Notes under the pieces: generated by a model | The model's database searches: none | Told to the model about the DNA's origin: nothing | The model's input: the letters and a program-made list of their open reading frames with translations, nothing else | NCBI GenBank assembly: GCA_019636345.1 | Contig: JAHBXQ010000001.1 | Span: 463,985-527,984, forward strand | Reading direction: 5' to 3' | Length of the DNA stretch: 64,000 nt | Source of the DNA: Pirellulales bacterium | GTDB lineage: Bacteria; Planctomycetota; Planctomycetia; Pirellulales; Lacipirellulaceae | Translations under genes and position numbers: made by a program | Shown: one piece after another, positions 39,697-43,641 of the stretch | Layout: every line of letters starts with the position of its first letter | Numbering within the stretch: the first letter of the stretch is position 1

Positions 39697-39799
39697 AATG
39701 ATCGGCGCTTCAACGCTGGCCGGCGCGTAGACAGGTGAACTGAAGAGTCCCTTCATTGAACCGCCAGCAGCGACAAAGCGGAGTTCTCACTAACCGAGA

Positions 39800-39917
39800 A
39801 GTAGAAAGGGACCCAGCTCAGTTCTTCGGTCCAACCATCGAAAGCCGAGCCACGGCGCGATGGAGCGCGTGGCAAATCATTCCTCCCGGGAACGCAGCGA
39901 GCAGTACGGGGCATGCC
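39800..39917. repeat. dispersed hairpin repeat, copy R1
   Basis: Related to R2 (40815-40918) and R3 (43531-43641). Shared landmarks in order: GAAGNAGAAAGG, TTCTTCGGTCCA, GCCGA-CCACGGCGCGAT, GCGTGGCAAATCATTCC, CCCGGGAACGCAGC. The CCACG...CGTGG part is a hairpin in R1 and R2. Confidence 0.7.
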
Positions 39918-40078: not shown

Positions 40079-40879
40079 ATGAGAACGTTGACCTTCATCG
40101 TCTGTGCGTTATGCGCCGGCATCGCCAGCCTCAATGCTCGCGCCACGTTGACTCCGTACAACGCCGGCGGCATTGATCTGGTTTACAGCAGCGTCAGCGA
40201 CGTCACTTGGTTGCAGCACGGCAACCTGCTCGGCAGTTGGATCAACGCCAGCGGCGCCCAAGCCGTCTTCGACGCCATCGCCGACAAAGTGCCCACGGTC
40301 ACGCTGTCCTATTCGTTCTCGGGCCCCGAGGTGCACACGCTTGTCTTAGGCGATTACTCGGGGGCATGGGGCGCCGACGGCAGAGCGACGTTCTACGGCG
40401 CCTTCGCATTCGTCGAGTACTTGAACGCCGTCTCGTACGGCGGCATCAACGGGTGGCGCCTGCCGGACGCGATCAACACGGTCTACCCCAACCCGTTCCC
40501 GAGCGGCTACGTCAAATCCGGCGACTTCGGGCAGCTCTACTACGACGAGTTGAACTCCACGTTCACCGGAATGGCGGATCCCCTGAACTACTTCACCGAC
40601 GAAGTCCATGCGCAGTACTGGTCGTTTACCTTGTTCGACAACACCGACATTGTTCAGCCCTACGGCTTCCACGTCGGCCAGGGAGACCAGTATTTTCTCA
40701 ACAAGGACTTTCCCTTCTACGTGTGGCCCGTGTTCAGCGGGCAGATCGCGGTGGTGCCAGAGCTTTCCAGTGCCTGGCTGGCGGGGCCCGTTCTGCTGTT
40801 CGCAGCCGCCCTTGGAAGAAGAAAGGGAACGCACATTTCTTTGGTCCACAGCGCGGAAGCCGAACCACGGCGCGATTGA
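40079..40879 (+). CDS. exported protein, DUF1566-like, with PEP-CTERM-like C-terminus
   Basis: 266 aa. Signal peptide (TLTFIVCALCAGIASLNARA). The mature part has DVTWLQHGNLLG near 38 and NGWRLPDAIN near 122, the usual D-x2-T-x-L-x-W and WRLP landmarks of DUF1566-like exported proteins. The C-terminus has VPELSSAWLAGPVLLFAAAL then GRRK, a PEP-CTERM-type helix and basic end with Leu replacing Pro in the VPEP motif. The final ~17 residues are encoded by repeat R2, which has extended the frame. AAGG lies 6 bases before ATG 40079. Confidence 0.78.
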   Translation: MRTLTFIVCALCAGIASLNARATLTPYNAGGIDLVYSSVSDVTWLQHGNLLGSWINASGAQAVFDAIADKVPTVTLSYSFSGPEVHTLVLGDYSGAWGADGRATFYGAFAFVEYLNAVSYGGINGWRLPDAINTVYPNPFPSGYVKSGDFGQLYYDELNSTFTGMADPLNYFTDEVHAQYWSFTLFDNTDIVQPYGFHVGQGDQYFLNKDFPFYVWPVFSGQIAVVPELSSAWLAGPVLLFAAALGRRKGTHISLVHSAEAEPRRD

Positions 40880-40918
40880 TCGCGTGGCAAATCATTCCCC
40901 CCCCGGGGACGCAACTCT
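40815..40918. repeat. dispersed hairpin repeat, copy R2
   Basis: Second copy of the R1/R3 family. Contains CCACGGCGCGATTGATCGCG then TGG, a strong hairpin (CCAC/GTGG and GCGAT/ATCGC). It overlaps the 3' end of the DUF1566-like gene and ends about 24 bases before the intI remnant. Confidence 0.75.
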
Positions 40919-40941: not shown

Positions 40942-41166
40942 TGGCGGCCCATCCTGCGTCTGGCTCGCAAGTCTCCCCCTGCCAACCGCGAATGGGTTTG
41001 GCAGTTCGTGTCTCCTCAAAACCATCGCTGGGCCAAGGCGAAGGCCGACAATCACGGAAGGCCTCATGGTCACGAGTCTCTCGCCCCAAAGTCTCTTAAG
41101 CAGGCTGCTGGACAAGCGGGGCCGACGAAACGAGTCACAAGCCGCACGTTCCGCCATTCATTCGCC
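40942..41166 (+). pseudogene. truncated integron-type tyrosine recombinase (intI) C-terminal remnant
   Basis: In-frame codons read WRPILRLARKSPPANREW, then VWQFVSPQNHRWAKAKAD, then HESLAPKSLKQAAGQAG, then PTKRVTSRTFRHSFAT. Tyrosine integron integrases have the same series: an EWxWQxVFP block, the IntI-specific additional segment, a H...L...LxxA...AGIxKR run and HTFRHSFATHLLE holding the catalytic HxxR box (here RTFRHS, first His lost). The reading then breaks at FAT into unrelated sequence with a repeat at 41172, and everything before the EWVWQ block is missing, including the first catalytic Arg. Normal IntI is over 300 aa, so this is a dead fragment. Orientation is the same as the cassette genes downstream. 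Confidence 0.75.
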
Positions 41167-41171
41167 ACTCC

Positions 41172-41208: not shown

Positions 41209-41509
41209 CGCCTCGAACCGGTTCAACCGCTCCCTCGCTCCGTTTCCCCCAGTGTGGCATGCCCTCGTCCGCGTGGGCATGGCGCAGTATCGGGAAGACA
41301 TGCCCACGACGACGGCCCGTCGAGGCCATGCCGCACGTCCGTTTGAACAACGGATCGGCACTGCATCACGCAGCGAGAAGATTGATAGAGACGCAACCCG
41401 CGTCTACACTGCGACTTGCGAGGCTCGGCCGCCTGCGCGTTAGGCTGACGACCTTGTAGCCTCCAGGCGTTACGTTAAGCATTCTATAAACAAGTTCGGC
41501 GGTGTGTGC
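41209..41509. other. cassette-array leading segment with GTTAGGC core
   Basis: No gene recognised. A GTTRRRY core, GTTAGGC, lies at 41439-41445 behind CCTGCGC, and a second, GTTAAGC, at 41474-41480. The first could be the right end of an attI or of a lost attC and would mark the left edge of the first cassette. No matching left core was found upstream, so this part is tentative. Confidence 0.4.
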
Positions 41510-41848
41510 ATGTTTGTCTCGGAGCGCTGGGGATTTCTTGTGCCAATCATCGGGTTAGCGGTTCTGGCGCTGACAGAAGCCATCTCTGAGTTTATCGCCG
41601 GCGACGATGCGTTCTATCAAAACAATCCCTGGGTGAAGTTTATCGGTTTTTGCGTTGTTGCCGCAATACTATGGCCACTTGGTCGTTGGCTGAACCGAAA
41701 GGCGCCTGAGCGGACTTTAGTTGATCCCAACACAGGAGAGCAAGTCGTACTCCAAATCGGAGGCGGCAACACGTTGTTCTTTATTCCCATGCAGTTTTGG
41801 GCTCCTATTGCTATTGTGCTGGGTCTCATATTCTTGGTTTCCAAGTAA
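41510..41848 (+). CDS. small membrane protein in an integron-like cassette
   Basis: 112 aa. Three hydrophobic stretches: WGFLVPIIGLAVLALTEAIS (about 5-24), VKFIGFCVVAAILWPLGRWL (about 41-60) and MQFWAPIAIVLGLIFLVSK at the C-terminus (about 94-112). Between the second and third is a short soluble loop (APERTLVDPNTGEQVVL). The DNA is visibly more AT-rich than the neighbouring core genes. The stop codon is followed after two bases by an attC-like site. No family recognised. ATG 41510; a GTG two codons upstream is possible. Confidence 0.65.
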   Translation: MFVSERWGFLVPIIGLAVLALTEAISEFIAGDDAFYQNNPWVKFIGFCVVAAILWPLGRWLNRKAPERTLVDPNTGEQVVLQIGGGNTLFFIPMQFWAPIAIVLGLIFLVSK

Positions 41849-41850
41849 TC

Positions 41851-41986
41851 GCCTAGCAACGCGTTGCCGTTCACTCGGCGGCCCTGCGCCGACCCTACGG
41901 TCGCTTTGGCGTTTCTCCTCCACGGCGGTATACTGATGATCGATCCTGCTCGCTTGAGGGCGGGCAACTGAGCTTTGGCGTTAGGC
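41851..41986 (+). other. attC-like integron recombination site 1
   Basis: 136 bases with standard attC layout. R'' GCCTAGC at 41851-41857 pairs with R' GTTAGGC at 41980-41986 (one G-T wobble). Inside, L'' GTTGCC at 41863-41868 pairs with L' GGCAAC at 41963-41968. Spacers are 5 and about 11 bases. The core GTTAGGC fits GTTRRRY; cleavage would be after G at 41980. The site lies directly behind the membrane-protein stop codon. Confidence 0.65.
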
Positions 41987-42028
41987 GGCAGAAGGCGCCG
42001 TCGTCGCACATCCAGGAGTCCTCCATAC

Positions 42029-42526
42029 ATGCCGCGGAACGCCGACTCGGAGATTGCAGTCTTCATCAGCCACTCGCACAGAGACAAGAATATCGCGGAG
42101 GCGTTGGTCAACTTCCTGATCGCAGGCGTTGGCCTTGAACCGGATGACATTCGCTGCACGTCGCACTCGCCAACTGGCCTCGCGATTGGTTCACTGATCG
42201 CCAACCGACTGCGTGACGAGATCGAGAACTGCGACTACTTTCTGCCCTTGATCACCCCGAACACGTTGAGCAGTGAGTTCGTCGCTTTCGAGATAGGTGC
42301 CGCATGGGCTCTCGAAACCTCCCTGGCGCCTCTTGTGCTGGAGAGCGCAACAACGAAGATCCCTGCGCTGCTACAAGGCCTTGTGTATTGCGACCTGAAG
42401 AGCTTGGACGCCCTCATTCAGCTCGTTTCTGAGCTGTCACAAGAGCTCTTCTATGCGCAGGACCGCCGCTCACCGAACCAGATGCTGTCTGCCGCACGTA
42501 CGTTCCTGGCTGCGACTGCCGTCTAA
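42029..42526 (+). CDS. TIR-domain protein (cassette-borne, candidate defence gene)
   Basis: 165 aa, a single TIR-type domain. AVFISHSHRDKNIAEALVNF near 10-30 (box-1-like), an acidic middle, ANRLRDEIENCDYFLPLITP near 66-85 and SSEFVAFEIGAAWALETS near 90-107, where the Glu in FEIGAAW is at the place of the NADase catalytic Glu in TIR proteins. No other domain or signal peptide. ATG 42029 follows CAGGAG by ~11 bases. Its TAA stop forms part of the attC-like core GTCTAAC, as in integron cassettes. Bacterial TIR proteins commonly deplete NAD during phage defence; that role here is inference. Confidence 0.82.
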   Translation: MPRNADSEIAVFISHSHRDKNIAEALVNFLIAGVGLEPDDIRCTSHSPTGLAIGSLIANRLRDEIENCDYFLPLITPNTLSSEFVAFEIGAAWALETSLAPLVLESATTKIPALLQGLVYCDLKSLDALIQLVSELSQELFYAQDRRSPNQMLSAARTFLAATAV

Positions 42527-42649
42527 CCCCTCGCTCGAGAGGCGACCCTCCAAGGCCGACTGCTTTGCCCGGCGGACTGGGGGCAGTTATTGTCGGTCTG
42601 CCGGACAAAGCTTCCGGCCGCTCCGGGCGATTCAGCTCGAACGTTAGCT
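42521..42649 (+). other. attC-like integron recombination site 2 (weaker)
   Basis: R'' GTCTAAC (42521-42527, a perfect RYYYAAC) overlaps the TIR stop codon. R' GTTAGCT (42643-42649) departs from GTTRRRY at one base. The interior has a GCTCGAG/CTCGA pairing and GC-rich palindromic parts, but L boxes are less clear than in site 1. After it, 42650-42851 shows no gene. Confidence 0.4.
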
Positions 42650-42851: not shown

Positions 42852-43157
42852 TCATTGCCCCCGCTTCTTCCAGTGATCTGGGTGTCGGCTGGCATGGTAG
42901 ACGGCGACGATCAGCGTGCGATCAACGTCTTCTCGGTAGACGACGACAAAGGGGAATCGGGTCAGGCGACGGCAGCGGTACAACCGGCTGTCATCGTGGT
43001 AGGCGCCTTGCCGAGGATGTTCCTCAATCAAGCCCAGCACGCGCTCCAGGGCGGCCAGGAACTGGTCGGCGACCTCGGGGTTCCGCTCGGCGTACCAGTC
43101 GCTGGCCTCTTGAATCTCGCCAGGGACCTCCGGCAGAAATGCGAGCCGCTTAGCCAT
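42852..43157 (-). CDS. RelE/ParE-family toxin
   Basis: 101 aa. AFLPEVPGEIQEASDWYAER near 5, LGLIEEHPRQGAYHDDSRL near 42-60, RFPFVVVYREDVDRTLIVAV near 67-86 and HASRHPDHW near 88: the small alpha/beta toxin pattern that acts on ribosome-bound mRNA or gyrase. The ATG at 43157 overlaps the antitoxin stop by 8 bases, so antitoxin is translated first. It is on the opposite strand to the integron-like cassettes. ParE versus RelE not decidable here. Confidence 0.88.
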   Translation of the reverse strand: MAKRLAFLPEVPGEIQEASDWYAERNPEVADQFLAALERVLGLIEEHPRQGAYHDDSRLYRCRRLTRFPFVVVYREDVDRTLIVAVYHASRHPDHWKKRGQ

Positions 43158-43410
43158 TGTCCGGTGACTTCGATTGCCAGGGCTTGCCGGTGATACCGGG
43201 CCAGGCGTCTTCAATGGGGATTGCCGTCGTTTCCCCGCTTTCGAGGCTGGCGACCCTTCGGTCAACCTCTTCGATCCACGCCTGCCGGACCGTTTTAGCC
43301 TCGGCTTGGGTCGGCTCAACGCTCCCCATCAGACGAACGGCCAAATCCTCTCGCGCGTCCGCCGGCAGTTTAAGCGCCTCGGCAAGAATGTGCTGGGCTT
43401 GAGTGTCCAT
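43150..43410 (-). CDS. addiction-module antitoxin (Unstab_antitox type)
   Basis: 86 aa. AQHILAEALKLPADAREDLA near 4-23, VRLMGSVEP, then WIEEVDRRVASLESGETTAI near 52-71, the typical short acidic antitoxin that neutralises the adjoining RelE/ParE-like toxin and ends with PWQSKSPDNG. ATG 43410 is preferred; an upstream ATG at 43452 adds 14 residues. Confidence 0.85.
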   Translation of the reverse strand: MDTQAQHILAEALKLPADAREDLAVRLMGSVEPTQAEAKTVRQAWIEEVDRRVASLESGETTAIPIEDAWPGITGKPWQSKSPDNG

Positions 43411-43530
43411 CGGGTCGCTTCTCGCGGGTTTCGTGGCAGCCGGCGCTTTCATTCTATCACAATCTCGCCTGCTCGACGCAAGCCATTCTCACAACGTCAG
43501 GGCCGCGACTTTCTCCAAGTTCCTGAGAGT

Positions 43531-43641
43531 CGAAGGAGAAAGGAACGCAGTTGATTTCTTCGATCCAAATCGCGAGAGCCGAACCACGTTGCTAGTGAGC
43601 GCGCGGCAAAGCATCCCCCGGGAGCCCAGCAAGCAGCGCGG
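43531..43641. repeat. dispersed hairpin repeat, copy R3
   Basis: Third copy of the R1/R2 family: GAAGGAGAAAGGAACGCAG, TTTCTTCGATCC, GCCGAACCACG, GCGGCAAAGCATCCC, GGGAGCCCAGC. More diverged in the hairpin. The gap 43411-43771 holds nothing else recognised. Confidence 0.65.

Follow-up and report, generated by a model that had tools for sequence, protein, structure and literature searches.

The TIR-domain gene analyzed here is almost certainly an integron cassette carried within a decayed integron. Integrons are bacterial platforms for gene capture, and in the 64,000-nucleotide stretch of Pirellulales bacterium DNA that we examined (the window), the TIR gene is carried as the second cassette in a small integron on the chromosome. 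Of the integrase only a fragment is left, and the attI core and the first attC site have both acquired mutations. The locus reads in the order intI remnant, attI, cassette 1 with its attC, and TIR cassette with its attC (Table 1). The best explanation for this arrangement, and one that we consider probable, is that the cassette encodes an NAD+-cleaving defence effector that was taken up as a cassette and is now stranded.

Table 1. Features of the decayed integron and its TIR cassette (window coordinates).
Feature	Position	Strand	Remarks
intI remnant	40960-41169	+	70 codons, residues 197-266 of about 316; TIGR02249 E 1.4e-15
Candidate Pc	41382-41410	+	TTGATA-N17-TACACT; lies after the intI remnant and before the attI core; consensus scan only
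attI	41415-41500 (about)	+	core AAGTTCGGC at 41492-41500; three-way alignment
Cassette 1 ORF	41504-41848	+	114-aa membrane protein, no known family
Cassette 1 attC	41851-41986	+	long lineage subtype; R'' mutated to GCCTAGC; R1 42.7 bits
Promoter-like motif	41906-41934	+	TTGGCG-N17-TATACT in loop of cassette 1 attC, aimed at TIR gene
TIR gene cassette	41981-42643	+	cut point to cut point, G^TTRRRY; from attC boundaries
TIR gene	42029-42526	+	ATG start, 165 aa, single-domain, ORF intact
TIR cassette attC	42521-42649	+	R'' GTCTAAC, L'' with extrahelical C, R' GTTAGCT; R1 20.9 bits

The initial annotation, made from the sequence alone, described a 165-residue TIR protein bracketed by GTTAGGC and GTCTAAC...GTTAGCT, with its stop codon inside the attC core. 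A profile search against Pfam recovered TIR families for this reading frame, and the boxes lie where they had been placed, with GTTAGGC 5' of the gene at 41980-41986, the R'' box GTCTAAC at 42521-42527 containing the TAA stop, and the R' box GTTAGCT at 42643-42649. Cassette boundaries drawn from the attC boxes show that the original coordinates were right almost to the base. The TIR reading frame is thus followed by an attC with R'', L'', L' and R' boxes and an extrahelical base, and it is positioned downstream of attI/intI and of another attC. The neighbouring small-membrane-protein cassette that had been proposed was also found on the forward strand as an open reading frame followed by an attC, with the amendment that this attC is decayed.

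The attC assignments were assessed using a covariance model (R1) built from 12 attCs of integrons and arrays of the family, from which the window sequence was excluded and to which other arrays of the same genome contributed four sites, including C4:428884-429010. Among the training attCs 92% of cells were paired and six pairs had changed on both sides, while slid controls gave far lower pairing. In the window the cassette 1 attC ranked first (E 1.5e-11) and the TIR attC second (E 2.7e-4), these model E-values being rough; as a third, probably false match reached 16.8 bits, the TIR attC score taken by itself is modest. For any given stop, the chance that an equally high-scoring complete attC-like pair begins no more than 25 nt away is approximately 1e-3. 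The same attC type, GYCTAACCCYTCGCTCGAG...CAGCTCRAACGTT, also closes the cassette at C4:428884-429010 in another array of this genome, and a search for the pattern in 294 genomes of the phylum returned mostly chance matches and one true array, which is in the same genome. The TIR attC folds with a z of -2.8 for the top strand and -1.7 for the bottom strand. Over its length, the cassette 1 attC aligns with further long attCs from the genome and the family. It and the TIR attC differ in type, which suggests that the two cassettes have separate origins.

Three parts of the platform extend what had been described initially: the intI remnant, attI and the decayed attC of cassette 1. The remnant was detected by a whole-genome search with the integron-integrase family; it is truncated at both ends and lacks the catalytic Tyr and the first catalytic Arg. 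Its closest relative is the full-length IntI of family genome G163 (70% amino acid and 81% DNA identity), followed by that of G092 (67% amino acid identity). Changes private to the remnant were distributed 3/10/5 over the three codon positions, versus 9/4/27 in G092, and this absence of third-position bias is as expected for a pseudogene. The region at 41415-41497 shares 73% DNA identity over 83 nt with the attI region of G092, and the core position reads AAGTTCGGC in the window versus AAGTTAG in relatives. As the core sits at 41492-41500, the GTTAGGC at about 41439 represents an inner attI motif. The locus therefore holds a 70-codon remnant in place of an intact intI, and no IntI above the family cut-off was found in the genome, whose assembly is 95.9% complete. 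Approximately 20 further attCs were found in the genome in arrays on C3, C4, C5 and C12, and a second, N-terminal intI fragment adjoins attCs on C4. The presence of arrays with no intact integrase indicates that the TIR cassette is stranded.

The intI of G163 lies upstream of its attC sites on the same strand, like the remnant in the window. Both layouts occur in the family, with intI on the cassette strand in G163 and G092 and facing away in G155 and G069 (L024-L029); this 'reverse' order, with intI on the cassette strand, is described as usual for Spirochaetota IntIs (PMC9668308). Homologues of the cassette 1 membrane protein were found on a few plasmids and in one family genome, and the DNA of the locus had no match among plasmids. 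Threonine synthase alone is conserved in synteny with relatives, so that no empty site can be read. Just past the TIR attC lies a ParE toxin and antitoxin pair (42852-43452, reverse strand; Pfam ParE_toxin and Unstab_antitox), for which no attC of its own was found. A local repeat of about 88 nt is present in three copies (39798-39887, 40815-40902 and 43532-43619), and the intI remnant, the cassettes and the toxin-antitoxin pair are bracketed by two of these; elsewhere in the genome there is one further, weak copy.

The TIR protein is likely an NAD-cleaving TIR, as judged from its residues and predicted fold. It matched Pfam TIR_2 with an E of 2.7e-14 and exceeded the cut-off of CAP12-PCTIR_TIR. 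In PADLOC the top model was spbK (E 1.7e-15), of which the protein covers only positions 147-242 of 308, the TIR part, while the ThsB models were weaker (best E 9e-9). Across 53 aligned TIR relatives F12, S14, H15, D19, G54, S82 and E88 are invariant; E88 corresponds to the catalytic Glu in helix C, and G90 and W93, which belong to the helix-C interface, are also conserved. Structural comparison of an AlphaFold model, which had been proposed at the outset, returned a SpbK-like fold: the model (pLDDT 88.9) matched SpbK 9phb best in the PDB (E 5.6e-7, TM 0.76), followed by MyD88 and then the SPARTA TIR. E88, G90 and W93 align with 9phb chain positions 216, 218 and 221, which we infer to be SpbK E192, G194 and W197 when reckoned with a 24-residue tag. 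In SpbK, G194R and W197A abolish filament formation or assembly and NADase activity (PMC12847820).

Orthologues in housekeeping contexts, which the initial annotation had named as grounds for doubting its reading, did not appear: a search of 296 other genomes from the same order gave no homologue with E ≤ 1e-8, and the more distant relatives, mostly at 25-40% identity, are patchily distributed as single genes across many phyla, with plasmid copies in Rhizobium, Agrobacterium and Enterococcus. Most homologues in named genomes are longer proteins with no attC, no homologue was found in phage records, and among TIR genes of the family no attC was found except beside the bSEFIR gene described below. 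NCBIfam gave no name for either the TIR protein or the 114-residue membrane protein. GC content is 58% for the TIR gene and 51% for the membrane-protein ORF versus 66% for the window, and GC3 is 0.72 and 0.56, respectively, versus 0.89 in neighbouring genes.

The protein resembles SpbK, the anti-phage TIR NADase of Bacillus subtilis ICEBs1, in its TIR fold, catalytic Glu and helix-C Gly and Trp, and in being carried on a mobile element, although here this element is an integron. Identity to SpbK is low (20% in the structural alignment), and the 165-residue protein lacks the N-terminal domain with which SpbK binds the phage portal YonE; it is thus at most like the SpbK effector domain, and we do not file it as SpbK. 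Thoeris ThsB is likewise a short TIR protein, but the window protein matches spbK better, and no match to ThsA or the SIR2 family was found among the neighbouring ORFs scanned. Defence genes in integrons are established in Vibrio and in mobile integrons, according to work by Darracq, Getz and Kieffer (2025) as it is cited in PMC12444791 and PMC12409362. The TIR cassette shares with those cassettes a single small gene with an attC that encodes a candidate defence effector, and differs from them in that it is a lone TIR known from sequence, in a host judged planctomycete-like from PEP-CTERM proteins, composition and similar general features, and on a decayed platform with intI on the cassette strand. 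Clusters of attC sites lacking integrase (CALINs) are similar in having an array without functional IntI, and there are several in this genome, whereas the TIR locus retains an identifiable integrase fragment and attI.

Two promoter-like motifs lie upstream of the TIR gene. The candidate Pc reads towards the cassettes, and its conservation in relatives is not obvious. The second lies in the loop of the cassette 1 attC, and similar loop motifs, TTGGCG/TTGAGC-N17-18-TATACT, are seen in several genera of the family (41906-41934; L224-L246, L295-L308). We compiled 26 long attCs of 120-136 nt from the present genome and its relatives in the family; 20 of them contained a promoter-like site with at least 8 of 12 matches directed towards the next cassette. 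On the opposite strand 2 such sites were seen, and shuffled sequences gave 1.0 on average and 4 at most. When only the 14 copies found outside this genome are considered, the -10 columns hold 1.46 bits, similar to the recombination boxes, compared with 0.94 bits in the spacer and 0.61 bits after the -10. It is possible, though we hold this tentatively and with some doubt, that in this planctomycete-like lineage the hairpin loop of the long attC subtype contains a sigma70-type promoter, through which each cassette of this kind would drive transcription of the next. We put this forward as a hypothesis because the copies share descent and because the hexamers may have a role in attC folding instead. 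No description of an attC-embedded promoter-like motif was found in the literature on integron-cassette promoters that we searched (a review and a study). Were the promoter real, decay of the integrase and its promoter would not silence the cassettes, the TIR gene here included; an active motif would account for how cassettes are expressed where an array has no integrase or Pc, a question that concerns large as well as orphan arrays.

Under the favoured reading, recombination between attC and attI would have brought the TIR cassette in from another integron, and the cassette would now be expressed from the integron promoter region, from the promoter-like motif in the preceding attC, or from both. 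A phage-derived or cellular trigger may bring TIR copies together head to tail, and the TIR thus activated would cleave NAD+, depleting it and bringing the infected cell to a halt, as in abortive infection. As no recognisable sensor domain was found in the protein, the trigger would be sensed by the TIR domain itself, by its short C-terminal helix or by an unlinked partner. From its family resemblance and the published integron defence stores, we lean slightly towards the view that the protein defends against phage.

Some bacterial TIR proteins are not defensive, and the protein could be NAD-active in another role, such as cell-fate control, interbacterial or plasmid conflict, or signalling. 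The TIR stands alone without a sensor, nothing phage-related lies near its gene, and its relatives occur on Rhizobium, Agrobacterium and Enterococcus plasmids, all of which would fit such a role; we nonetheless consider it unlikely, given that SpbK and the SPARTA TIR, the characterised proteins nearest to the TIR protein in sequence and fold, are both immune effectors and that the relatives are patchily distributed. The decay of the platform raises a separate question, namely whether the cassette is silent cargo that has stayed intact by chance and has no present function. The IntI pseudogene, the mutated cassette 1 attC and attI, and the frequency of integrase-less arrays are consistent with this, while the intact reading frame with every TIR motif, its good ribosome site (AGGAG at 42014-42018, 10 nt 5' of the ATG) and the promoter-like motifs at two upstream places argue against it and make it quite improbable.

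The membrane protein of cassette 1 might also be thought to form a two-gene defence system with the TIR protein, as the genes are adjacent on the same strand and could share a single transcript. Their placement in separate cassettes, with attCs of different type and probably separate origins, leaves little probability for this. That the GTTAGGC and GTCTAAC motifs are there by chance, with no integron at all, would draw on the frequency of GTTRRRY, which occurs 67 times in the window; the integrase remnant, the attI homology and the independent model matches contradict it, and we give it virtually no weight. An integron is likewise what the initial annotation had proposed from the packaging of the gene, and this is borne out by the IntI remnant, by attI and both attCs, and by the arrays elsewhere in the genome.

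Integron-borne defence genes have already been published, and the TIR gene, read as a defence effector, is a further example; the conserved promoter-like motif of the long attC subtype may be the newer observation. The idea that integrons stock immune genes has so far drawn mostly on Vibrio and on mobile integrons; the locus carries it over to a planctomycete-like genome in which integrase-less arrays are numerous. The minimal single-domain protein offers a test case for how a sensor-less TIR is triggered.

A possible second example of a TIR gene beside integron remains was found in Noviherbaspirillum galbum, where a SpbK-like TIR gene (L071:2579-4113; PADLOC spbK E 2.6e-32) begins some 60 bp away from a truncated intI of opposite orientation (NF011946 E 2e-12), next to which it may be the first cassette. 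AttC-like boxes, GCATAAC...GTTAGGC, lie at its stop; as this candidate attC folds weakly (z 0.27) and was not picked up by the family covariance model, we treat it as supporting evidence only. Within the genome under study, a bSEFIR anti-phage gene on C3 (L165:10257-11754; PADLOC E 2e-92) lies beside a nine-site attC array and has a candidate 62-nt attC (13.6 bits) at its stop codon. Two pairs of direct repeats, 93-94% identical (L165:8239-8433/9962-10154 and 9825-9967/12268-12410), surround this array and the bSEFIR gene and include a duplicated hydrolase tail.
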